Origin: Vulcanimicrobiota bacterium
Lineage (GTDB): Bacteria; Vulcanimicrobiota; Vulcanimicrobiia; Vulcanimicrobiales; Vulcanimicrobiaceae
Assembly: GCA_003168375.1 (NCBI GenBank)
Contig: PMSI01000003.1
Span: 1,054,001-1,118,000, forward strand
Direction of reading: 5' to 3'
Length of the DNA stretch: 64,000 nucleotides
Both the position numbers and the translations under genes were made by a program. Every line of letters begins with the position of its first letter. Position 1 is the first letter of the stretch. Below the pieces are notes generated by a model. That model searched no databases and had not been told where the DNA came from. It worked only from the letters and a program-made list of their open reading frames with translations. Of the stretch, positions 25,996-36,209 are shown in pieces.

Positions 25996-26046
25996 CTCCG
26001 ACCTCGGATTTCACGTTCAGTCTTCAGCGACTGAGGAATGGTGCCC

Positions 26047-28188
26047 ATGACACGGCTCGGGAACAAGCTCTTCTCTTCGGTGCTCTCGATCGCAGTCGCC
26101 ACGTCCCTCGCGGCGTGCGGCGGCGGCGGCTCGCACGTGAGTGCTGTGCCGCAAGCGCAGCCCACCACGAGCAGCAGCGCGGCGTACACTGGGCCGCTCT
26201 CCGACGCGACCTTCAAGATCACGATCCCCGTGCCCGCGACCAGCGCCAAGGCGCGGCGTCCGGCCTACGTGTCGTCGTCGACGACGAAGATCGTGTTCAC
26301 GCTGAACAGCGCGACGATTGCCGGCATGACCGGCGCCACGCTAGCGACGTTCAACACCACCAACCTCGGGGCGAAGGCCGTCACGCTCAATAGCGCAACG
26401 TGCCCGGGGTCCGGGCCGTGGACATGCACGCTCACGATCAAGCTGCCGCCGGGCACCGACAACGTCACGATCTCGGCGCAGGACGGCTCGAGCAACATCC
26501 TCTCGCAGCAGGTTCAGAATTTCGTCGTCGTCGTCGCTACGGCGAACTCGTTCAGCACGACGCTCGACGCGAACGCGGCGACGATCACGGTGACCGGCAG
26601 CCAGGCCTGCCAGATCGGCACCGTCGGCACGGCGTACGGCTCGGTCGGCACGACACCGGTGACCTTCACGGTCTCCTACACCGACCTCGCCGGAAAGACC
26701 ATCGTCGCACCCGGGCTACCGAAGCTCGAAATCCAAGACGGCTCGGCGGTCTATCAGTCCGCGTCGGGCACGATCGGCAGCGGCGGCACGGGCGTCTCGT
26801 TCACCATCAACCAAGCCGCGCAGACGTTCACGATCACGCCGAACAGCACCAGCTCGAGCGTGACCATCAACGTCAAAGCGATTCAGGCCGATTCCAACGT
26901 CCCCGTCGACACCAACCCCGACGGGCTCTCATTCGCGCGGACGAAGTCCTATACGTTCCAGACCGGCGTGGCGCCGCCGACGCACAATTTCCTCGGCGCG
27001 ATCGAGCAGCTCACGCTGAGCAGCGGTCAAGTCGATTTCTTCAACGTCACGCTAGGCGGCAATAGCCCAGGATCGGACACCTTCGCGGCGTTCTCGCCCG
27101 CGACGCTCGCCGTGACAGCGTCGACGAACCAGGCCGGGGTCAACGACGTCGACAACCCCAGCGACCTGCGCTGGGACACCAACGGCGATCTTCTGATCGC
27201 CAACGGCGGCGGCGCTCCCGGCGACAACGGCAACATGGCGTGCGTCCCGGTCGGCGCGATCGCGACGGGCGCGAACGCCTCGACCACGGTGACGGCGAAC
27301 GTCGATGCGCCGGTCTCGATCGCCTACGACACCCGCGACGGCAGCGTCGCACTCGCCAACAACCCCACGAGCGCATCGGTGCAGCTCTCCGAATACGCGT
27401 TGACCGGGAACTACACTGCGTCGAGCAACAACCTGACCGCCTCCGGTTTCGGCTCGCTGGGCAGCGTCACCGAGATGCCCTCGCTGACCAAGGGCACCTA
27501 CGCCATCTCGCTGGCCACCGGGGCGGAAGAGGATCCGGCGCACGCCGGGACGACCGGGACCAACAAGGTCGTGATCTTCAGTCCGACCGGGGTGTCGACG
27601 ACGCTCAGCGACGACGTGACGTTCACGATCGACGAGCCTTGGGGACTGGCTTGGGACGCCGCGCACAGCCAGCTGGTCATCGCCAACCACTCGACGTTCC
27701 ACCGCCTGCTGAGCTTCTACAGCGATACGGGGACCCTGATCAAGAACGTCAACGTGACGCATCGCATGTCGGTCGTCGCCGCCTCGGCCGACGGGCACGT
27801 CGCGGTCGCCTATACGACGTCGTTCGGCTACATGCAGGTCCAGGTCTACGCGAACGCCGCGGGCGCGACAGCCCCGACCGCGGTCTTCGGACCGATTCCG
27901 TACAACGGCACGACGACGTCCTGCGGCTCGACCTACATCTACGGCAACGGGACGACGATCGTCAACGCGCTCAAGTGGCTCTCGAACACGAAGCTGCTGG
28001 TCGCGGTGCAGTCGAACAACTCGGGCACGCCGACCTCACTCAACGGGTTCTACATCTACGACATCACCGCTTCGGCGGCCCAGGCCGGCTTCGACGACGT
28101 CAGTTGCGCCGCGTTCGCGGCGGCGCCGGTCAACACCGGATTCGTTCACGTCAACAACAAGCCGCTCGGCGCGGCGTTCAAACCGTAA
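26047..28188 (+). CDS. Large surface lipoprotein, shared-block family
   Basis: A 713-residue lipoprotein (lipobox 'LAACGGGGS'). The N-terminal block reads 'ARRPAYVSSSTTKIVFTL', 'CPGSGPWTCTLTIKLPPG', 'VTISAQDGSSNILSQQ'. Residues ~315-713 form a propeller-like domain with 'DLRWDTNGDLLIANGGG', 'DEPWGLAWDAAHSQLVIAN' and 'TKLLVAVQS'. It is clearly paralogous over its whole length to the protein at 36374-38542. ATG at 26038 is an alternative start. No enzyme motif is seen; binding or adhesion is plausible. Confidence 0.8.
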   Translation: MTRLGNKLFSSVLSIAVATSLAACGGGGSHVSAVPQAQPTTSSSAAYTGPLSDATFKITIPVPATSAKARRPAYVSSSTTKIVFTLNSATIAGMTGATLATFNTTNLGAKAVTLNSATCPGSGPWTCTLTIKLPPGTDNVTISAQDGSSNILSQQVQNFVVVVATANSFSTTLDANAATITVTGSQACQIGTVGTAYGSVGTTPVTFTVSYTDLAGKTIVAPGLPKLEIQDGSAVYQSASGTIGSGGTGVSFTINQAAQTFTITPNSTSSSVTINVKAIQADSNVPVDTNPDGLSFARTKSYTFQTGVAPPTHNFLGAIEQLTLSSGQVDFFNVTLGGNSPGSDTFAAFSPATLAVTASTNQAGVNDVDNPSDLRWDTNGDLLIANGGGAPGDNGNMACVPVGAIATGANASTTVTANVDAPVSIAYDTRDGSVALANNPTSASVQLSEYALTGNYTASSNNLTASGFGSLGSVTEMPSLTKGTYAISLATGAEEDPAHAGTTGTNKVVIFSPTGVSTTLSDDVTFTIDEPWGLAWDAAHSQLVIANHSTFHRLLSFYSDTGTLIKNVNVTHRMSVVAASADGHVAVAYTTSFGYMQVQVYANAAGATAPTAVFGPIPYNGTTTSCGSTYIYGNGTTIVNALKWLSNTKLLVAVQSNNSGTPTSLNGFYIYDITASAAQAGFDDVSCAAFAAAPVNTGFVHVNNKPLGAAFKP

Positions 28189-28207: not shown

Positions 28208-28747
28208 TTGAGTCAACCTTACGTTGGTGAGATCCGAATGTTCGGCGGAAGCTTCGCACCTGCGGGCTGGATGACGTGCGACGGCCAAGTGCTGCCGATC
28301 TCCGAGTACGACACACTCTTCAACCTGATCGGCACGACGTACGGGGGTGACGGCCAGAGCACGTTCGCACTGCCAAACCTCGCGGCGCGCCTACCGCTGC
28401 ATCAGGGCAGCAACGGGACGAGCAGCTACACCGTTGGCCAAAACGGCGGGGTCACGTCGGTGACGTTGACGACCAACCAGATTCCGGCCCACACCCACCC
28501 GATCATCGCAGACAACAACGCTGCCACGACGGGCGCCCCGAACAACGCGTATTTTGCGAACTCCTCGCCGAACAATCTCTTCACCGTTCCCAACGGTCCG
28601 GCCAACCCCGAGCCGCCGATCTTCCGGAACTTCAACGCGGCGGTGCTGCCCAGTCAAGGCGGGAGCCAGCCGCACGACAACATGCAGCCGTACCTCGCGC
28701 TCACGTACATCATCTCACTCTTCGGCATCTTTCCGAGTCAGAACTGA
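28208..28747 (+). CDS. Tail-collar domain protein 1
   Basis: A 179-residue protein, TTG start after AAGGGGGAAG. The Tail_collar domain shows 'GGSFAPAGWMTCDGQVLP', 'LFNLIGTTYGGDGQSTFALP', then 'IPAHTHPI' and C-terminal 'QPYLALTYIISLFGIFP'. Such MdpB-like proteins resemble the tips of phage tail fibres but often occur, as here, with no other phage gene. It has no signal peptide. First of three tandem paralogues. Confidence 0.85.
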   Translation: MSQPYVGEIRMFGGSFAPAGWMTCDGQVLPISEYDTLFNLIGTTYGGDGQSTFALPNLAARLPLHQGSNGTSSYTVGQNGGVTSVTLTTNQIPAHTHPIIADNNAATTGAPNNAYFANSSPNNLFTVPNGPANPEPPIFRNFNAAVLPSQGGSQPHDNMQPYLALTYIISLFGIFPSQN

Positions 28748-29286
28748 TGTCGAATCCATTCGTAGCGGAGATCCGCATCTTCCCCTTCAACTTCGCGCCC
28801 AAGGGCTGGGCGTTCTGCAACGGGCAGCTCCTGCCGATCTCGCAGAACACGGCGCTCTTCTCATTGCTCGGCACGTTCTACGGCGGCGACGGGAAGTCGA
28901 CGTTCGCGCTCCCGAATCTGGAAGGCTCCGTTGCCATGCACACGACGCAATACAGCGGCGGCGGCCCGTTCGGCACGTTCGACATCGGCCAAAGCGGCGG
29001 GGAAGACACCGTCACGCTGCTCACCTCTGAAATGGCCGCTCACACCCACACCATGCAGGGCGACGCCGACAACAACAACTCGACGGCAGTCTCTCCGAGC
29101 GGTGCGGTGCCGGTGAACGCGTCGCCGATACTGAGCTTCTCGAACAGCGCGACGCCGCAGACCGGCCTCATGAACCCCAGCATGGTGAGCATCGCCGGAG
29201 GGAGCAACCCTCACAACAACCTCATGCCGTACCTGACGCTCCAATACTGCATCGCACTCCAAGGGGTCTACCCGCCGCGCACCTAG
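28747..29286 (+). CDS. Tail-collar domain protein 2
   Basis: A 179-residue paralogue: 'FPFNFAPKGWAFCNGQLLP', 'LFSLLGTFYGGDGKSTFALP', 'MAAHTHTMQGD', 'MPYLTLQYCIALQGVYP'. Its ATG overlaps the TGA of copy 1 by one base, so the two are co-translated. The Asn/Ser-rich insert after 'HTH' differs from the other copies, suggesting divergent binding tips. Confidence 0.85.
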   Translation: MSNPFVAEIRIFPFNFAPKGWAFCNGQLLPISQNTALFSLLGTFYGGDGKSTFALPNLEGSVAMHTTQYSGGGPFGTFDIGQSGGEDTVTLLTSEMAAHTHTMQGDADNNNSTAVSPSGAVPVNASPILSFSNSATPQTGLMNPSMVSIAGGSNPHNNLMPYLTLQYCIALQGVYPPRT

Positions 29287-29320
29287 CGCGTCCGGTATGA
29301 CGGCATAAGGAAAGGAAGAG

Positions 29321-29833
29321 ATGGGAACTCCATTTTTGTCTGAGATCAGGATCATGTCGTTCACCTTCGCGCCGAAGGGGTGGGCGCTGTGCAACGGCCA
29401 GTTGCTGCCGATCAACCAGAACCAGGCCTTGTTCTCGTTGCTCGGCACGACGTACGGGGGCGATGGGCGGGTGAACTTCGCGCTGCCGGACCTCCGGGGC
29501 CGCGTCTCGATGCACATGGGCTTGGGGCACACCCTCGGCGAGCGCGGCGGCGAAGAGTCGCACACGGTCGTTCAGAGCGAGATGCCGGCCCACACCCACA
29601 TCGCCACCGCCGACGTCAAGGTCGGCGACAACCAGACCGGCAATATGACCAATGGGTATCCGGCCAACACCGGCGGGACAAAAATGTTCTCGAACGGCAG
29701 CAACAACATGGTGCCGATGTATCCGCAGATGGTCTCGACGGTCGGCGGAAGCCAAGCTCACGAGAACCGGGAGCCGTACCTGTGCCTGAGCTTCTGCATA
29801 GCCCTTCAGGGTATTTTCCCGAGCCAGAACTAA
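29321..29833 (+). CDS. Tail-collar domain protein 3
   Basis: A 170-residue paralogue: 'FTFAPKGWALCNGQLLPI', 'LFSLLGTTYGGDGRVNFALP', 'EMPAHTHIATADVKVGD', 'EPYLCLSFCIALQGIFPS'. AAGGAAAGGAAGAG precedes the ATG. Three linked copies with one fold and different inserts suggest hetero-oligomer assembly; that is inference. Confidence 0.85.
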   Translation: MGTPFLSEIRIMSFTFAPKGWALCNGQLLPINQNQALFSLLGTTYGGDGRVNFALPDLRGRVSMHMGLGHTLGERGGEESHTVVQSEMPAHTHIATADVKVGDNQTGNMTNGYPANTGGTKMFSNGSNNMVPMYPQMVSTVGGSQAHENREPYLCLSFCIALQGIFPSQN

Positions 29834-29875
29834 CCGTTCCTCACCCCCAAACCCCTCCAAAAGGACCACAACACA

Positions 29876-30787
29876 TTGAAGCGCGCCCCGTTTCTCGGGG
29901 CCTCCGCGGCCGTGCTTTTAGCCGGCTGCGGCGGTTCCCATGTGATGCGAGCGCTTCCGGGTGTCGCGCCTTCTTCGCTCAATCCTACCTCCGGTCAAGG
30001 CGGTCGCCTCGTCCCGGCGACCGCCGATCCGATACCGGACACCGTCTTGACCCGGCCGATCATCGGCGAAGCCCGCCGCTTCGACGGGACGGCGGCGCCC
30101 AGCGGGTGGTCGTTCGCCAAGGGTCAGACCGTCAATGTCGCCGACAACAAACCGCTCTTCTCGATACTTGGCACGATCGCCGGGGGTGACGGTCGTTCCA
30201 CGTTCAAGTTGCCGAATCCGAGCTTCGGCGTCATCATCGCGGTCGCCGGGATCTTCCCGACGAGTCCTGGTGTCGTCGCCCAATCGGGACGGCACATGAC
30301 GCCCACCGATTCGCTGGGGCCGAACGCGCGCGCGGTAATGCCGCGCATGCCGAAGCCCCCGTCCCAGCAGCTATTGGCCGATCGGCGCCTGCTGACGTCC
30401 GGGATCCGCGTCGGGCACGCGTTCCCTGTCCCCGTTTCGCCGGACCTGGCGGCGCGGATCAAGGGCGCGACCCAAGACGCGCGAAGCGCGGCGATCGAGG
30501 CGCTGAGCTCATCGAACCGCGCTCGGCTCGAGGCCGCGGTTCAAGCCGCGGTCGACGGGCGCATCAGCGTGTACGGTGCGGTGAGCGAGATGATATCGTC
30601 GCTTACTTCCGCTGAAGCCGATGCGCTGCTGCGGGTCAACGACGCCATGATACGCCCGTTCAACGACCAGGCGTTCGCGAGTTCCTCTCGCGACGCGCAG
30701 ATCGACGCCGGGCACTTCCTGGTCTCGGTAGCGATCACGCGTGAGCAGGCCCGCGCGATCTTTGCCCGCGAGCGCCGCACACTCTAG
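29876..30787 (+). CDS. Lipoprotein with partial collar domain and helical C-terminus
   Basis: A 303-residue protein, TTG start, lipobox 'LLAGCGGSH'. Residues ~60-125 keep the front half of a collar domain ('ARRFDGTAAPSGWSFAKGQT', 'LFSILGTIAGGDGRSTFKLP') but lack the HTH and tail half. The second half is helical ('ARSAAIEALSSSNRARLEAA', 'LTSAEADALLRVNDAMIR'). It may anchor the collar proteins to the envelope. No known family for the helical part. Confidence 0.7.
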   Translation: MKRAPFLGASAAVLLAGCGGSHVMRALPGVAPSSLNPTSGQGGRLVPATADPIPDTVLTRPIIGEARRFDGTAAPSGWSFAKGQTVNVADNKPLFSILGTIAGGDGRSTFKLPNPSFGVIIAVAGIFPTSPGVVAQSGRHMTPTDSLGPNARAVMPRMPKPPSQQLLADRRLLTSGIRVGHAFPVPVSPDLAARIKGATQDARSAAIEALSSSNRARLEAAVQAAVDGRISVYGAVSEMISSLTSAEADALLRVNDAMIRPFNDQAFASSSRDAQIDAGHFLVSVAITREQARAIFARERRTL

Positions 30788-30788
30788 C

Positions 30789-31148
30789 GTGGGGAGGATC
30801 GTCAACTTCCACCTTCCGGCGGACGACGTGGAGCGAGCCGCGACGTTCTACCGGGAGGTGTTCGGGTGGGAGTTCGTTCCCTTTCCGGGTTCGCCGGTGC
30901 CGTATCTCATCCACCAATTCGCGGACGGCGACGGGGCGGGCGTCCCGGCCGCCATCACGCAGCGCCAAACGGTCGTGAAAGCACCGACCCCGACGATCGA
31001 AGTCGACAACATCGATCAGGCGATGACAGACATCGCGATGAAGGGCGGCCAGCAGGCCCGGATCGAGGAGATCCCGGGCCTGGGCCGCTTCGGGTACGCG
31101 ATCGACTCCGAAGGGAACGTCATCGCGCTGCTCCAGCGCGAAACGTAG
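30789..31148 (+). CDS. VOC (glyoxalase/bleomycin resistance) family protein
   Basis: A 119-residue single VOC module: 'IVNFHLPADDVERAATFYRE', 'FGWEFVPF', 'IEVDNIDQAMTDI', 'GYAIDSEGNVIALLQ'. The expected metal ligands His and Glu are only partly present. GTG at 30789 follows the previous stop by one base, indicating co-transcription. Substrate unknown. Confidence 0.8.
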   Translation: MGRIVNFHLPADDVERAATFYREVFGWEFVPFPGSPVPYLIHQFADGDGAGVPAAITQRQTVVKAPTPTIEVDNIDQAMTDIAMKGGQQARIEEIPGLGRFGYAIDSEGNVIALLQRET

Positions 31149-31151
31149 CGC

Positions 31152-32933
31152 CTACGTTCCGATCTGTTCTGCCATAATCAGGACGTCGAACGTCCCGAGC
31201 CCGGTCGTGTAATCGTATCCCGGCAACGCGGTGTACGCACCGTTTCCGCCGGTGATGATGTCGTGGAACCCGCCGAGCGCCTGCGTCGGCGGCGGCCCGG
31301 TCACGGTGGTCGCGCCGCTCTGGTTCTGGAGATAGTCGCGGTACAGCCACGGAGGGGCGTAGCCCAGCATGTTGACGGTCCACGACATCATCCGCGCGTA
31401 CGCGCCCATCGTGAGCGGCGACGCTTCGCTCGTTCCGCCGATCGCGCAGCCGGCGCTGCAGTTGCCGACGCCCGGGATATTCGGCGCGTACACGTTGTAT
31501 GCGCCGGAGAACGCATCCGCCGCCATCGCCATGTCGGGGACGCCGCGCAGGTTCGTCGCCGCGAGCCCGGTGCTCGAGGGGATGACCGCCTGCTGCCAGC
31601 GCGTCGAGTTCTCGAACTGGCTCAGCCCGCCGCCGCCGGCGTTCCAGGCGGTTTCGCCGGCGTAGCTGCCGTCGGAGTTCGCGACCACCGTCGTGCCGCC
31701 GACGGCGACGACCCATGGCGAAACCGCGGGGAAACTCACCATCGGCGGACCAGACCCCGGCGCGCCGTTGGTCGGCGCGAGGGCGCATGACGATCCCGTA
31801 TCGCCGGTCGAGGCGAACATCGTCTGCCCCTGCGCGGCGGCCTGCATGAAGAGGTTGTCGTCGATCTTCATCGAGCCGTCGAGCCACGCTTGGTACTCGC
31901 ACTCGCCGAACGATGAGTTCCCGAGCCGGGCGGCGTTGTCGCCGACCCACTTGCTGTACGCACTGGCGATGTCCGAGTCAGAGAGCGAGGTCGTCGCATA
32001 GATGTACAGGCCGAGGACGTTCTGCGCCATCCCGGTCGAGCTTTGGGTGTCCAGGTCCCACTCCACGACGCCGGCGGTGTCGGGGCTCGGCAGACCGACT
32101 TGCACGATGGTGACGGGAACTTGCGGCAGATTCTGCTTTGCCTCGGCGAACCGCAGATCGCTCACCACTTGCGAAACATCGCCTTCGGCGATGACCGCGA
32201 CCTTCGTGTCCGACGCGTCGGGGACGTACGCAACGTCGTAGAACTTCTGCACGTCCGCCGCGTTGAACGTCGGCGCGCACTGCCCGGTCGGGGCGGCGGT
32301 GATGAGGCACGACGCATGGACGCGGGTCAGATTCGGCCGTACCGTCATCTTGGCCGCGTTCGTCAGCCCGAGAACGGCGCTCACGACGCCGCTGAGCGAG
32401 GCCGGAACCAGCGCCGGTTGCGTGTTGACGTACACGTTGGCCCCGCCCAGCGAGAACGACTCGAGCGAAGTGTTGAACGCCTTCGCGACCTGTGCCGCGG
32501 TGCCGTCGGCGCTGACGAGTTGCGTGTCGGCGTGCACGTTGCCGAACCCTTGGCCCTGGAGATACGAGACGACCGATTGCAGCTCGGCCGGCGTCGGTCC
32601 GTATGCGGCGGCAAACTGCGCGGGCGTCATCGGAGCCCGCTTCGCCGGCGACGCGATCGCGGTCGCGAGCTGGTCCGCGTTGTGCAGGTTGAGCCCGACG
32701 CGGATCGTGATCGGCGTCGAGGGCGAGAGCGCGCCGCGGTCGACGGCGCCGGGGATCGTCGCGCCGCGCGTCGCGGTCGCGGCCCAGCCCGCCGGAACGG
32801 CGATCGCCGCGTCGCGCGGCGAGCGAGCAAGCGCTTGTGACGAGACCGGGAGCAGCGAGCTTGCCCCGTGTCCTCCGGCACATGACGCCGTGAGGACCCC
32901 CACGGCAGCGGCGATAGCGGCGAGTCTGAGCAT
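31152..32933 (-). CDS. Sedolisin-type (S53) acid serine peptidase lipoprotein
   Basis: A 593-residue exported peptidase with lipobox 'VLTASCAGG'. Residues ~50-205 are the pro-kumamolisin activation domain. The catalytic part has Glu and Asp in 'VEWDLDTQ', an oxyanion Asp region 'STGDTGSSC', Ser in 'CAIGGTSEASPL', and the C-terminal Ca-binding 'FHDIITGGNG' with 'GYDYTTGLGTFD'. Sedolisins cleave proteins at low pH after self-removal of the prodomain. It is the last gene of a minus-strand run that includes the Nif11 peptide and could be its processing or scavenging protease. Confidence 0.88.
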   Translation of the reverse strand: MLRLAAIAAAVGVLTASCAGGHGASSLLPVSSQALARSPRDAAIAVPAGWAATATRGATIPGAVDRGALSPSTPITIRVGLNLHNADQLATAIASPAKRAPMTPAQFAAAYGPTPAELQSVVSYLQGQGFGNVHADTQLVSADGTAAQVAKAFNTSLESFSLGGANVYVNTQPALVPASLSGVVSAVLGLTNAAKMTVRPNLTRVHASCLITAAPTGQCAPTFNAADVQKFYDVAYVPDASDTKVAVIAEGDVSQVVSDLRFAEAKQNLPQVPVTIVQVGLPSPDTAGVVEWDLDTQSSTGMAQNVLGLYIYATTSLSDSDIASAYSKWVGDNAARLGNSSFGECEYQAWLDGSMKIDDNLFMQAAAQGQTMFASTGDTGSSCALAPTNGAPGSGPPMVSFPAVSPWVVAVGGTTVVANSDGSYAGETAWNAGGGGLSQFENSTRWQQAVIPSSTGLAATNLRGVPDMAMAADAFSGAYNVYAPNIPGVGNCSAGCAIGGTSEASPLTMGAYARMMSWTVNMLGYAPPWLYRDYLQNQSGATTVTGPPPTQALGGFHDIITGGNGAYTALPGYDYTTGLGTFDVLIMAEQIGT

Positions 32934-33012
32934 AGAGTTCCAATCCTCCTCACGCTCAGCGTACGAGCCGGCGCGGGCCCCCAGACATACCGTAAACCGG
33001 GTAGACCGCGCC

Positions 33013-33558
33013 CTAGCCAGCTTCTCCGGCCCGGCGAACGGCGACGACTTGAGGCCGCATGAGGTGCTCGAACCCGGGAACGACCGGCGTACGGGCGACG
33101 ACGGTGAACCCGAGCCGCTGGAGCAGGTTCCCGCTGCGCGCGTTCTCCGGATGGAAGTACGCGGTCAGCGCGGTGAGCCCGCGCTCCTCGAACACCCAGC
33201 GCACGACCCGGCCGACGGCCTCGCTCGCGTACCCGCGGCCCTCGTAGGCGCGGTCGACGGTATAGCTGAGCATCGCGCCGGGCGGGTCCTCCGTCGAGAA
33301 CCCGTCGAGCGAGACGACGCCGACCAGATCCGGCCCGTCTTTCGCAAAGGCGAGGAACGACGGCGGATATCCGCTGCGGCGCTGCTCTTCCCGCTGCGCT
33401 GCGACCCAGGCGGCGTGAAACGCCGCGTCATCGGGGCGGTCGGGTTCCCAAGGGGCGAAGCGCTCGGCGTTGCGGCGGTAGTAGTCGCGCAATGTTTCGG
33501 CATCGTCATCCTCGGGCGGGCGCAGCGTGAGCCGGGCGGTTTCCAGCGTGGGCGTCAT
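33013..33558 (-). CDS. GNAT N-acetyltransferase (RimJ/RimL type)
   Basis: A 181-residue acetyltransferase: 'LETARLTLRPPEDDDAETL', 'AMLSYTVDRAYEGRGYASEA' (acetyl-CoA P-loop) and 'FHPENARSGNLLQRLGF'. Its ATG overlaps the TGA of the sulfotransferase gene (ATGA), so it belongs to that operon. The substrate may be a protein N-terminus or small amine; within this operon the peptide or modified protein is a candidate. Confidence 0.88.
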   Translation of the reverse strand: MTPTLETARLTLRPPEDDDAETLRDYYRRNAERFAPWEPDRPDDAAFHAAWVAAQREEQRRSGYPPSFLAFAKDGPDLVGVVSLDGFSTEDPPGAMLSYTVDRAYEGRGYASEAVGRVVRWVFEERGLTALTAYFHPENARSGNLLQRLGFTVVARTPVVPGFEHLMRPQVVAVRRAGEAG

Positions 33559-34526
33559 CGTGACCGCAGCGATGCGTAGACGGGATCGAGCCAGTGCGTG
33601 GCGAGACGTTCGATCTCTGCAGACGCTTGCAGCGGGCTCGTCGCCGATTGGAACGGGCTGCCTTCGCCCTTGGCATCGATCGTTGCGATCTCGTGCAAGC
33701 GCCGTGTCTCGTCCGCGTTCGGCGAGACGCCGAACAGCGGCAGCACGTCCGTGAAGACGGCACCGGGCAGGTCAGCGTAGTCGACGAAGCGCGAGCGACC
33801 CCCTGACGCGTTCTCGAGCGCGGCGTTGCAGAACGCGGCCACCATGCGCGCGCAGAACTCCTCGGGCGAGATCGACGCCACCGCACTCGCTTGGATGCCG
33901 GCGATGCGGGGATCGATCGTAAACGGGACGATCTCCGCCCCTGGATTCTTCTCCTGCGATCGCATGACGGCGCGCGGCTCCCGGAACGCGAAGACCCACG
34001 GCGTCGTGGGAAACGCCCGTGCGATCAACGGCAAGTCGACGACATGCCACGCGTGGAACTTCACGAACGATCGGCACTCGCCGCGGCGCGGACGGGTCAG
34101 CGCGCCGGTTATCGCGCGTAACAGGCGCACCGCCGATTCATCGTCCATCATGCCCGCGCGCCGGAGCCGCAGCACTCCGTCCAGCGGCTGCGGCTCCGAG
34201 AGCACGATCGTGTCGGAGAGACGCGAGAGCATCTGCGCGATCAGCGTCGATCCGCAGCGGGACATGTGGAACACGAACCCGGTCGGCTCACCGTCGGGCA
34301 GGGTCTGCGGAAATGCGTCCAGGACGTCGAGCGGCGTCGTGCGCAGGAACACCTGATTGAACGGATGCTGCATCGCACGATACGCGCTCTGTTCGAAGAA
34401 CGGATCGGTGAACCGCTCATCGATCACCGCCCAATCCACCAGCGGTTCGGCAGCGCTGCCGTGAACGCGAATCGGCGTCCACCCCTCGAGGCTCGCGTGG
34501 TCTAACGAACCCACCGCAACGACCAT
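33555..34526 (-). CDS. Sulfotransferase family protein
   Basis: A 323-residue enzyme. The PAPS 5'-phosphate loop is 'GFVFHMSRCGSTLIAQML' and the 3'-phosphate site is 'FAFREPRAVMRSQEKNP', both characteristic of PAPS-dependent sulfotransferases. The first 80 residues are a lineage-specific N-terminus. The gene overlaps the 3' end of the Nif11 peptide gene by 25 bases and is coupled to the GNAT gene. The acceptor is unknown. Confidence 0.82.
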   Translation of the reverse strand: MVVAVGSLDHASLEGWTPIRVHGSAAEPLVDWAVIDERFTDPFFEQSAYRAMQHPFNQVFLRTTPLDVLDAFPQTLPDGEPTGFVFHMSRCGSTLIAQMLSRLSDTIVLSEPQPLDGVLRLRRAGMMDDESAVRLLRAITGALTRPRRGECRSFVKFHAWHVVDLPLIARAFPTTPWVFAFREPRAVMRSQEKNPGAEIVPFTIDPRIAGIQASAVASISPEEFCARMVAAFCNAALENASGGRSRFVDYADLPGAVFTDVLPLFGVSPNADETRRLHEIATIDAKGEGSPFQSATSPLQASAEIERLATHWLDPVYASLRSR

Positions 34527-34708
34527 GCGCGCTGCGCCGAGGCTTCGGCGCCCGCGATATCCGACTCGGTGACGTCACATCCGATCTCCGATGCGAGCCG
34601 CAGCACGTCGGCGGCGAATCGTGCCGGTTCGACGCGGCGCAGCCGCAGCGCGAGCTCCGGATCGCCGTGTACGCGCGCTCGCAGCGCCCGTAAACCTTCA
34701 ACCGACAT
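34502..34708 (-). CDS. Nif11-type small peptide, possible RiPP precursor
   Basis: A 68-residue protein, ATG 34708 with GGAG about 9 bases upstream. It matches the Nif11 leader fold: 'MSVEGLRALRARVHGDPELA', 'RFAADVLRLASEIGCDVTES'. The segment after it, 'AEASAQRAWSLRWVR', is short and lacks the GG cleavage motif of classic Nif11 precursors. It contains no Tyr, so it is not an obvious tyrosine-sulfation target. It lies between a hydroxylase and a sulfotransferase gene, all on one strand, which suggests a modified peptide or a leader-like adaptor. Confidence 0.65.
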   Translation of the reverse strand: MSVEGLRALRARVHGDPELALRLRRVEPARFAADVLRLASEIGCDVTESDIAGAEASAQRAWSLRWVR

Positions 34709-34732
34709 CGTTATTCACTCCGATGTGGCCCA

Positions 34733-34755
34733 TGCTTCGACAAGCTCAGCATGAC
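34733..34755 (+). repeat. Short palindrome-derived repeat (copy 4)
   Basis: TGCTTCGACAAGCTCAGCAT followed by GAC, at the junction of the Nif11 gene and the hydroxylase stop. The changes CCT-to-GCT and AGG-to-AGC are compensatory, keeping the outer pairing. Confidence 0.75.
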
Positions 34756-35333
34756 AATGGGGCGGTGAGCATTCGCATGAGCGCGGGGTTGACGATGCAG
34801 TCGACCACGAGATGGATGCGCGGGCCGGGACCGGGATTCGTGACGCTGTGCGCATTCAACACGTCGAGGTACCAGCATTCACCGGGAGCCATGTGCAGCG
34901 GCTCTCCGGCCAGCACGAACTCGACGCCCGGCCCGGTCACGACCGGGACGTGAAGCCGGACGAAGCCGTAGTCGACGCCGATGTTGTGGTCCTCATGCTC
35001 GAGGATGCGCGCACCCGGGCCTAGCCTCAGCAGGCGGACGGACTTCGTTTCGCGGCCGATCTCCGCGAGCACGCCGCGTACCGCCGGACAGCGCTTGAGG
35101 TACGCCGTATCGGCCCACGGCGCCGTACCGGTCGGATCGGGTGGGGCCGGCAACCGACCGTACGGAGACCGCAGCGATACGTAGCTCCAATCGCCCTCGT
35201 AGTACGCCTTGTTGAAGTGCTTGCGCCACGCGCCCTCGTCGAACGCCAGCGCCTCGACCGCAAGCGCACCCGCATCGAACGCGAACGGCAACCGCAGGCG
35301 TGACGGCAGTCCGGCCGGCGCATCTGTTGACAC
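34746..35333 (-). CDS. Aspartyl/asparaginyl beta-hydroxylase-family protein
   Basis: A 195-residue Fe(II)/2-oxoglutarate oxygenase. The family pattern is complete: 'RILEHEDHN' (first iron His and acidic ligand), 'VRLHVPVVTGPGVEFVLAGE', 'GECWYLDVLNAHSVTNPG' (second iron His) and 'RIHLVVDC' (2-oxoglutarate Arg). It would hydroxylate Asp or Asn side chains of a protein or peptide. GTG start at 35333. It is the first gene of a run with the Nif11 peptide and sulfotransferase genes. Confidence 0.85.
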   Translation of the reverse strand: MSTDAPAGLPSRLRLPFAFDAGALAVEALAFDEGAWRKHFNKAYYEGDWSYVSLRSPYGRLPAPPDPTGTAPWADTAYLKRCPAVRGVLAEIGRETKSVRLLRLGPGARILEHEDHNIGVDYGFVRLHVPVVTGPGVEFVLAGEPLHMAPGECWYLDVLNAHSVTNPGPGPRIHLVVDCIVNPALMRMLTAPLSC

Positions 35334-35344
35334 CGTCGTCTCTT

Positions 35345-35535
35345 CGTCGGCTCATTGCTCCGCGCCCTGGTCGGGAACTCCATGCCGACCGCACAGATGC
35401 CCGCGCACGCGCACACGACGACCGAATGGAGGACAACTGCCCACTCGTCGCGCGTGAAGCCCAACGTCCCCGTGCTCACCGTGCCCGGTCACCGAACCCG
35501 ATGTCACCCTGAGCCTGTCGAAGGGCGAACGATCT
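35345..35535. repeat. Dispersed duplicated segment Y, copy 1
   Basis: TTCGTCGGCTC, GCTCCGCGCCCTGGTCGGGA, CCCCGTGCTCACCGTGCC and the following short repeat recur in the same order at 38605-38716, where about 80 bases of the middle are missing. A third partial copy (GTCCTGGTCGGGA) is at 35938-35955. The plus strand can be read as 'AQMPAHAHTT', faintly like a collar domain 'PAHTH' motif. Confidence 0.65.
35503..35525 (-). repeat. Short palindrome-derived repeat (copy 5)
   Basis: GTCACCCTGAGCCTGTCGAA followed by GGG, at the right end of segment Y copy 1. The next bases GCGAACGATC are also shared with copies 7 and 8. Confidence 0.85.
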
Positions 35536-35601
35536 CCGCATAAACGCGGGCACGTGCATGATTGCGGCGCGATCCGAGGCTCGGCACGATTGTTCGCCCT
35601 T

Positions 35602-35634
35602 CGCCCTGAGCTTGTCGAACGGTCAGGGTGACAT
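35602..35634 (-). repeat. Short repeat, double unit (copy 6)
   Basis: CGCCCTGAGCTTGTCGAAC is joined to GGTCAGGGTGACAT, giving a two-sided palindrome with outer arms of the CCCTGA/TCAGGG type, like copy 9 in cheA. Confidence 0.75.
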
Positions 35635-35675
35635 CGGGGCGAGTGGCGACTCGCGATGAGCACGGGCATGAAGCG

Positions 35676-35694: not shown

Positions 35695-35720
35695 CAACCT
35701 TTGCGGTCGCTCGAGGACAC

Positions 35721-35909
35721 CTATTGTTCGACGAAGTCGGGGTACTCGCTTTCGCGTACCTGTCGTCGTTGTCGACGTCGCACCCGACATCGCTCGCGAG
35801 CCATTGCACCTCGGCGGCGAATCGCTCCGCGGTGACGCGACGCAGCCGGAGCGCGAGCTCGGGGTCGGCGTGCACGCGCGCGCAACGCCTGCAGACTTTC
35901 GGCCGACAT
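35721..35909 (-). pseudogene. Decayed second Nif11-type gene joined to an rlmD tail copy
   Basis: ATG at 35909 gives 'MSAESLQALRAR'; after a one-base loss in a CG run near 35875 the frame continues 'VHADPELALRLRRVTAERFA', 'WLASDVGCDVDNDD', clearly a paralogue of the gene at 34502. From about 35765 the sequence matches the last codons of rlmD (with another one-base loss) and ends at the same TAG. So it is a chimera with two frameshifts. Confidence 0.75.
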
Positions 35910-36012
35910 GACGGGACCTTCGCCGCGTCGTTTCTCTGCGTCCTGGTCGGGATTTCCTAGCCGTTCGGCGAAGCACGGAGCAAACGCACACGACGCCCTA
36001 TAGGGGTGATCC

Positions 36013-36175
36013 ATGGCCGACGGCTTCCTTGGCGAGTCGGATGTTTGGCGGCAGCTTTCCCCCGAACAGCTGAGCCTTGTGTGAAGGCCAGCTGCTATCC
36101 ATAGCGCAGAACTCGGGACTCTTCTCGATCATCGGCGCGACGTACGGAGATGCTCAACGATTCAGCGGTCGAAGT
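36013..36175 (+). pseudogene. Decayed tail-collar gene
   Basis: ATG 36013 reads 'MADGFLGE'; after a two-base loss the frame gives 'RMFGGSFPPNS', an internal TGA, then 'ALCEGQLLSIAQNSGLFSII' and 'GATYGDAQRFS'. This aligns with the intact collar proteins at 28208-29833 ('RMFGGSFAPAGW', 'CDGQVLPI', 'LFNLIGTTYGGDG'). Everything after the first third is lost and replaced by leader RNA copy B. Confidence 0.8.
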
Positions 36176-36209
36176 CGCATAAACTGCCGAGAATCGTACG
36201 TTCCCTACG

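Follow-up and report, generated by a model that had tools for sequence, protein, structure and literature searches.

Why do a hydroxylase, a very short Nif11-type open reading frame (ORF) and a sulfotransferase stand side by side next to genes for proteins that resemble the tips of phage tail fibres? This question is raised by a locus of a Vulcanimicrobiota bacterium (GenBank assembly GCA_003168375.1, contig PMSI01000003.1), which we analyzed within a stretch of 64,000 nucleotides (positions 1,054,001 to 1,118,000 of the forward strand; hereafter, the window). An earlier sequence-only reading had described five adjacent minus-strand genes, encoding an Asp/Asn beta-hydroxylase-family oxygenase, a Nif11 peptide, a sulfotransferase, a GNAT acetyltransferase and an S53 protease, as a candidate peptide-modifying system. 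All five ORFs are present and their domain assignments hold, Nif11 and the sulfotransferase being below threshold as single sequences (Table 1). Our analysis indicates that the hydroxylase, Nif11 and the sulfotransferase very probably constitute a conserved adaptor module that is found in three phyla, and it directs attention to the co-encoded tail-collar proteins as the candidate substrate.

The recurrence of the three genes was analyzed in a set of 60 related genomes. We found ten sulfotransferase loci in eight of them (in G010, the gene is split over two contigs), and all six AspH-type hydroxylases of the set lie at most 0.9 kb from a sulfotransferase gene. Strong Nif11 matches were confined to sulfotransferase neighbours or fusions, with the exception of a decayed copy in the window. 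Throughout the window's phylum, Nif11 is located beside or fused to every collar-linked sulfotransferase, and the same is true for most of those elsewhere. The gene group also occurs in Verrucomicrobiota (loci L027-L029 and L054-L057) and Pseudomonadota (L058-L066), for which 388 and 397 genomes were surveyed, as well as in two contigs from a viral collection (L085 and L086). In L086, APS (adenosine 5'-phosphosulfate) kinase and hydroxylase genes come first, then those for a sulfotransferase of 396 aa whose N-terminus is Nif11-like but divergent, a GNAT and three collars, and finally another sulfotransferase gene and one for a giant surface protein. The neighbourhood thus recurs far beyond chance in three phyla, contrary to the concern, voiced with the sequence-only reading, that the genes might rarely be adjacent in relatives.

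Tail-collar genes are the constant neighbour of this module. Positions 28208-30787 on the plus strand of the window hold four genes with a PF07484 domain (2e-28 to 5e-14), whose products resemble phage tail-fibre tips, including that of T4 gp12, and share an invariant HxH pair. In the related genomes, none of the ten sulfotransferase loci is farther than 6 kb from a collar gene; the chance per locus of such proximity is 0.3-1.1%, loci within one genus not being independent. Likewise, the sulfotransferase is present in 8 of 14 collar-bearing and in none of 46 collar-less related genomes (p=1e-6). Among 299 Pseudomonadota genomes, 33 collar loci (L098-L130) were found, with a GNAT of another subfamily near 27, DUF6916 near 21 and lasso-type genes near a few of them. 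Collar, GNAT and DUF6916 genes form a widespread core cassette, to which the hydroxylase, Nif11 and the sulfotransferase are one optional addition. GNAT genes accompany collar genes with or without the module (in L092 and L093, the module is absent), which removes the acetyltransferase from the system as it was first drawn. The protease probably has to be removed as well: the S53 gene is broken into several frames in L018 and has no match in L023 and L025, while L091 contains two copies and collar genes in the absence of the module. The locus is largely fixed in the window's genus (gatA/gatC, lipoproteins, collars, a variable slot, an RNA methyltransferase-like gene, cheW, cheA); depending on the species, S53, GNAT or the module occupies the slot, which makes S53 an optional neighbour and probably no member of the module.

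A comparison of collars with and without the module gave rise to the idea that their C-terminal Asn is concerned, which was then tested on 57 collar-bearing Pseudomonadota genomes. All 19 collars end in Asn in the ten genomes with the hydroxylase compared to 31 of 123 collars elsewhere, counts in which several collar genes can stem from one genome. By genome, all collars end in Asn in 10 of 10 with and 9 of 47 without the hydroxylase (p=2e-6). Hydroxylase and collar genes are on different contigs in G581, G679, G691 and G1048, and all collars of these genomes end in Asn. We also scanned 77 genomes from three phyla for covariation of every alignment column and residue (176 columns x 20) with the hydroxylase, stratified by phylum. 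The top feature was the C-terminal Asn (z=5.7; 95% permutation maximum 4.3; 0 of 1000 permutations), the fraction of which with and without the hydroxylase was 1.00 and 0.30 in Pseudomonadota, 0.66 and 0.24 in the window's phylum, and 1.00 and 0.00 in Verrucomicrobiota. Phylogenetically separated pairs, taken from a collar phylogeny that leaves out the tail, favour the link 18 to 1 (p=4e-5). Collars end in Asn in the sulfotransferase-only Pseudomonadota genomes G992 and G1013, and in Ser or Thr at four sulfotransferase-only Verrucomicrobiota loci. A collar Tyr was considered as a covarying target and rejected, as there is no conserved Tyr column and the mean Tyr count is alike with and without the module; a rare Tyr at column 21, in place of Trp, is enriched in a minority of collars only. 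From these sequence patterns, the collar proteins are probably the substrate of the module.

Several observations weigh against a modification of the collar C-terminus. Part of the same data had prompted the Asn hypothesis, and the association is modest in the newly surveyed genomes alone (all-Asn collars in 4 of 4 module genomes, including two with the sulfotransferase only, versus 5 of 17 of the rest; p~0.02). The nine hydroxylase-less genomes with all-Asn collars belong here too, as does the window's own phylum, in which Asn is found on some paralogues only (66% vs 24%) and collar B of the window ends in Thr. No Tyr column clearly stood out in the first comparison with and without the module. 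L061, L063 and L066 contain hydroxylase and sulfotransferase genes with no collar gene close by; two of these genomes (G581, G691) have collars elsewhere. The nearest solved relatives of the hydroxylase act on free proline, and lasso-type genes surround the module in the sphingomonad-type loci L059 and L060, where a peptide substrate is possible.

These lasso-type genes would suit another co-encoded target, be it a secreted lipoprotein, a giant adhesin or an alphaproteobacterial lasso peptide, with the collars as merely co-regulated neighbours, and so would the large secreted or adhesin-like proteins flanking L027, L028, L063, L064 and L086. However, such partners vary by locus while the collars are constant, and the collar C-terminal Asn tracks the hydroxylase even at unlinked loci. 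In addition, no match to AsnB, PqqD, HPr-kinase or B2 was obtained in the window (radical SAM and ABC families were not scanned systematically), and we regard such a target as unlikely. AsnB, PqqD, B2, HPr-kinase-like and sulfotransferase genes adjoin Pseudomonadota collar triads in L059, L060, L111, L120, L125, L129 and L032, and a possible lasso precursor is located at 12138-12326 of L059. A gene list from Pontixanthobacter (PMC10040529) contains near-consecutive clusters of lasso B2, sulfotransferase, Asp beta-hydroxylase, sulfotransferase, PqqD and Asn synthase genes, which are listed as co-occurring with salt tolerance and are otherwise uninterpreted. Lasso clusters with HPr-kinase-like and sulfotransferase genes are interleaved with collars and the module in the sphingomonad-type loci, but most collar loci are devoid of them, and so, as far as scanned, is the window.

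What the two enzymes might do to a collar protein was assessed from their homologues and structure models. The hydroxylase belongs to the Asp_Arg_Hydrox family, and H113xD115, H162 and R172 (the HxD...H motif and the Arg for 2-oxoglutarate, 2OG) are invariant across 15 homologues. Its closest solved relatives are a cis-4-proline hydroxylase (4p7w, 1e-18) and the "proline oxidase" 1e5r (4e-11), and since these are proline enzymes, the substrate cannot be named from homology. A strict label of Asp/Asn beta-hydroxylase is not supported: the closest structures are those of free-proline hydroxylases, although the covariation with the C-terminal Asn fits an Asn target. The enzyme shares the domain and the metal- and 2OG-binding residues with the PF05118 hydroxylases (AspH, 4p7w, 1e5r) and differs from them in being partnered with Nif11 and a sulfotransferase and in covarying with the collar C-terminal Asn.

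The sulfotransferase reaches 25.9 bits with Sulfotransfer_3 as a single sequence (Pfam cut-off 27), and 11 of 13 family members match this model. The best solved folds for its structure model (pLDDT, a per-residue confidence, 79.7; pTM, a global one, 0.81) are the tyrosylprotein sulfotransferases TPST1/2 (Foldseek 3.5e-6), with a VIA-align Z of 16.1 and 3.4 A over 219 residues (Z 15-16 for TPST1/2). R90, G92, S93, T94, E111, K156, R182 and S190 do not vary among 13 collar-linked homologues and correspond to the 5'-phosphosulfate-binding (5'-PSB) loop, the catalytic Glu, and the Arg and Ser of the 3'-phosphate-binding (3'-PB) site; the position of R90 is Lys in the distant relatives L030 and L031. 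The spacing of the invariant residues fits the active site of TPST (TPST2). A search of the family profile against PDB sequences gave no match up to E 0.1, the top chance matches above this value being CNNM domains. An APS kinase gene is located directly upstream in L063 (5.8e-53 and 1.7e-50), in the same operon, and, as identified by Pfam, in the L086 operon, which points to 3'-phosphoadenosine 5'-phosphosulfate (PAPS) as sulfate donor. The model suggests a protein-type sulfotransferase that is closest to the tyrosylprotein sulfotransferases. It would have a protein substrate in common with TPST1/2 and with bacterial RaxST, which sulfates RaxX (PMC6637879), and shares the fold (TPST) and PAPS-type motifs, but with at most 20% identity it forms a family of its own, with an added N-terminal segment and coupled by Nif11 to a hydroxylase. 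The distant relatives of L030 and L031, in Methylobacter and Crenothrix, lie directly after a phosphosulfolactate synthase-like gene, with neither Nif11 nor a collar gene.

If the module acted on a small molecule that is attached to the collars or bound by them (a free amino acid, a lipid or a sugar), the use of free L-proline by the closest solved hydroxylases and the unrelated metabolic contexts of the Methylobacter and Crenothrix relatives would be readily understood. This is distinctly unlikely, given that the nearest sulfotransferase folds are those of protein-tyrosine sulfotransferases, that an adaptor of RiPP-leader type (RiPP, ribosomally synthesized and post-translationally modified peptide) is expected with peptide or protein substrates, and that the presence of the hydroxylase is linked to the residue at the collar C-terminus.

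The role of Nif11 itself is best seen in relatives in which it is fused to either enzyme. Reading the ORFs directly, we found it at the C-terminal end of the hydroxylase chain, in a single frame, in L061, L063, L064 and L065, and at the N-terminal end of the sulfotransferase chain in three clear loci (L059, L060, L062); for the L063 chain, Pfam reports PF05118 plus a weak Nif11 match (6e-4). In the window, Nif11 is a separate ORF between the two enzyme genes, in the same order as in the fused relatives. The single sequence scores 18.6 bits with Pfam Nif11 (curated cut-off 23.8) and 27.3 bits with NCBIfam TIGR03798 (cut-off 32.3), and 8 of 18 family members match these models, while the family profile retrieves the solved Nif11 leader of MppE (9zn4, 5.5e-8). 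Scanning the window's own genome with Pfam Nif11 gave no match, so this branch escapes the curated model. The structure model comprises four helices (pLDDT 90), the last of which spans residues 48-66 of 68 and thus leaves no room for a core peptide. A W..RW end is conserved among the homologues, and dN/dS (nonsynonymous to synonymous rates) between relatives is 0.20-0.68, a range that overlaps with that of the sulfotransferase (0.29-0.70), so that the frame is under purifying selection and the doubt raised earlier on this point does not apply. Because of the fusions, Nif11, which is modelled as a complete domain, most likely acts as an adaptor and not as a precursor.

Nif11-related RiPP precursors (TIGR03798/N11P) were defined by Haft et al. 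2010 (PMC2887384), and in the searched passages of that paper there is no mention of sulfotransferases or of Nif11 fused to tailoring enzymes. The window domain is of the same leader type, with the MppE leader as nearest solved structure, and it adjoins two modifying enzymes; the sequence-only reading had considered a RiPP-like role for the peptide. Taken as a precursor, the peptide itself would be hydroxylated and sulfated, and S53 would release the product. This is very improbable: as had already been pointed out, the 68 residues contain neither Tyr nor a GG site, and there is no core, the fold is complete to residue 66, relatives fuse Nif11 to the enzymes, and S53 is not kept with the module. 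A loose defence or mobile island, assembled by chance or by horizontal hitch-hiking, is scarcely credible, since three phyla have this triad together with an unchanged partner and since fusions occur on both sides, even though decayed copies lie upstream and the synonymous divergence (dS) between G000 and G004 is 0.27 for the hydroxylase (window 34746-35333 versus L018 12479-13096) compared to ~0.7-1.2 for its neighbours, which suggests from the sequences a more recent exchange of this gene.

The fusions, the proximity of collar genes and the covariation of the Asn favour what the sequence-only reading had offered as its second choice, namely Nif11 as adaptor and the collars as substrate. We lean towards a cytoplasmic module in which Nif11 would serve as a docking adaptor and in which the hydroxylase and then the sulfotransferase would act on the collar C-terminus. 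By docking, Nif11 would join the two enzymes and would probably aid in recruiting the target, most likely the C-terminus FPSQN/FPSRN-COOH of the co-encoded collars. No signal peptide is visible by eye in enzymes or collars, so that modification would probably take place in the cytoplasm. The hydroxylase would oxidise the C-terminal Asn or an adjacent residue; that the Asn itself is hydroxylated falls just short of an even call. With PAPS, the TPST-like enzyme would sulfate the new hydroxyl or a nearby Tyr, Ser or Thr side chain, and sulfation at the very site of hydroxylation is doubtful on present sequence evidence. Equally speculative is the most specific version, in which the C-terminal Asn would be beta-hydroxylated and the new hydroxyl O-sulfated, with the detached Nif11 scaffolding both enzymes in trans. 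The modified collars, resembling trimeric phage-fibre tips, might then arrive at the cell surface.

Table 1 Features of the locus in the window.
Feature	Position	Strand	Basis and role
2OG/Fe(II) hydroxylase, AspH-type, PF05118	34746..35333	-	Pfam 4.9e-15; core enzyme 1 of module
Stand-alone Nif11 domain, 68 aa	34502..34708	-	Profile, model, fusions in relatives; proposed docking adaptor between both enzymes
TPST-like PAPS sulfotransferase	33555..34526	-	Structure model and family profile; core enzyme 2; overlaps Nif11 ORF
GNAT acetyltransferase, RimJ-like	33013..33558	-	Acetyltransf_3 1.1e-26; collar-associated accessory
S53 sedolisin-like protease	31152..32933	-	Pro-kuma_activ 3.2e-25; optional neighbour
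Tail-collar protein A, C-terminus ...GIFPSQN	28208..28747	+	PF07484 3.3e-27; proposed substrate
Tail-collar protein B, C-terminus ...GVYPPRT	28747..29286	+	PF07484 4.5e-27
Tail-collar protein C, C-terminus ...GIFPSQN	29321..29833	+	PF07484 2.3e-28; proposed substrate
Collar-domain lipoprotein-like protein D	29876..30787	+	PF07484 4.5e-14; lipobox LLAGC in sequence; kept in relatives
C-terminal Asn codon, collar A	28742..28744	+	Candidate modification site; ranked first in covariation scan (176 columns x 20 residues)
C-terminal Asn codon, collar C	29828..29830	+	Candidate modification site; same covariation scan
Secreted lipoprotein-like protein	26038..28188	+	Directly upstream of collar genes; adjoins collars in relatives too; no Pfam match
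Decayed second Nif11 copy	35711..35881	-	tblastn 57% identity to intact copy, 1e-15; profile match; recognisable to ~residue 46, C-terminal part gone
Decayed collar gene fragment, in-frame TGA	36038..36190	+	tblastn 2e-12

Some further features of the locus are worth recording. GNAT and sulfotransferase genes meet in an ATGA overlap. Upstream of the hydroxylase gene, the Nif11 relic and the collar fragment (35711-36190) represent the decayed remains of another copy of the island. Short inverted sequences resembling repetitive extragenic palindromes (REP-like; GACAAGCTCAG / CTGAGCCTGTC) are found at 34739-34770, where the hydroxylase gene has its 3' end, and at 35500-35640, upstream of this gene; compared to the G004 relative, the C-terminus of the hydroxylase is divergent where the REP-like element sits. 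A small glyoxalase/VOC-like gene on the plus strand (30789-31148), between collars and S53, is kept across the genus.

In our literature searches, which did not extend to subscription papers, we found no description of a module of hydroxylase, Nif11, sulfotransferase and collar genes. The suggestion that an undescribed modification system is encoded here has gained substance from the recurrence of the triad. All component families are known and the chemistry is predicted, but the module is apparently undescribed as a system, and we rate it as a new kind of system because no described one has such parts or such a target. The collars share their domain, the structural similarity to gp12 and long tail fibres, and the HxH pair with the T4 gp12 short tail fibre tip (PF07484), and differ from it in forming chromosomal triads of proteins of ~175 aa, with GNAT and DUF6916 genes nearby, located outside a phage tail operon.

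Chromosomal tail-collar proteins are present in about 1 in 10 of the sampled Pseudomonadota genomes, and no function of theirs is established to our knowledge. A module devoted to their maturation, for which a site is predicted, offers a direct route to it. If the proposed reactions hold true, hydroxylation and sulfation of a protein C-terminus would join the known bacterial modifications, and Nif11, hitherto a leader of precursors, would be used as an enzyme adaptor.

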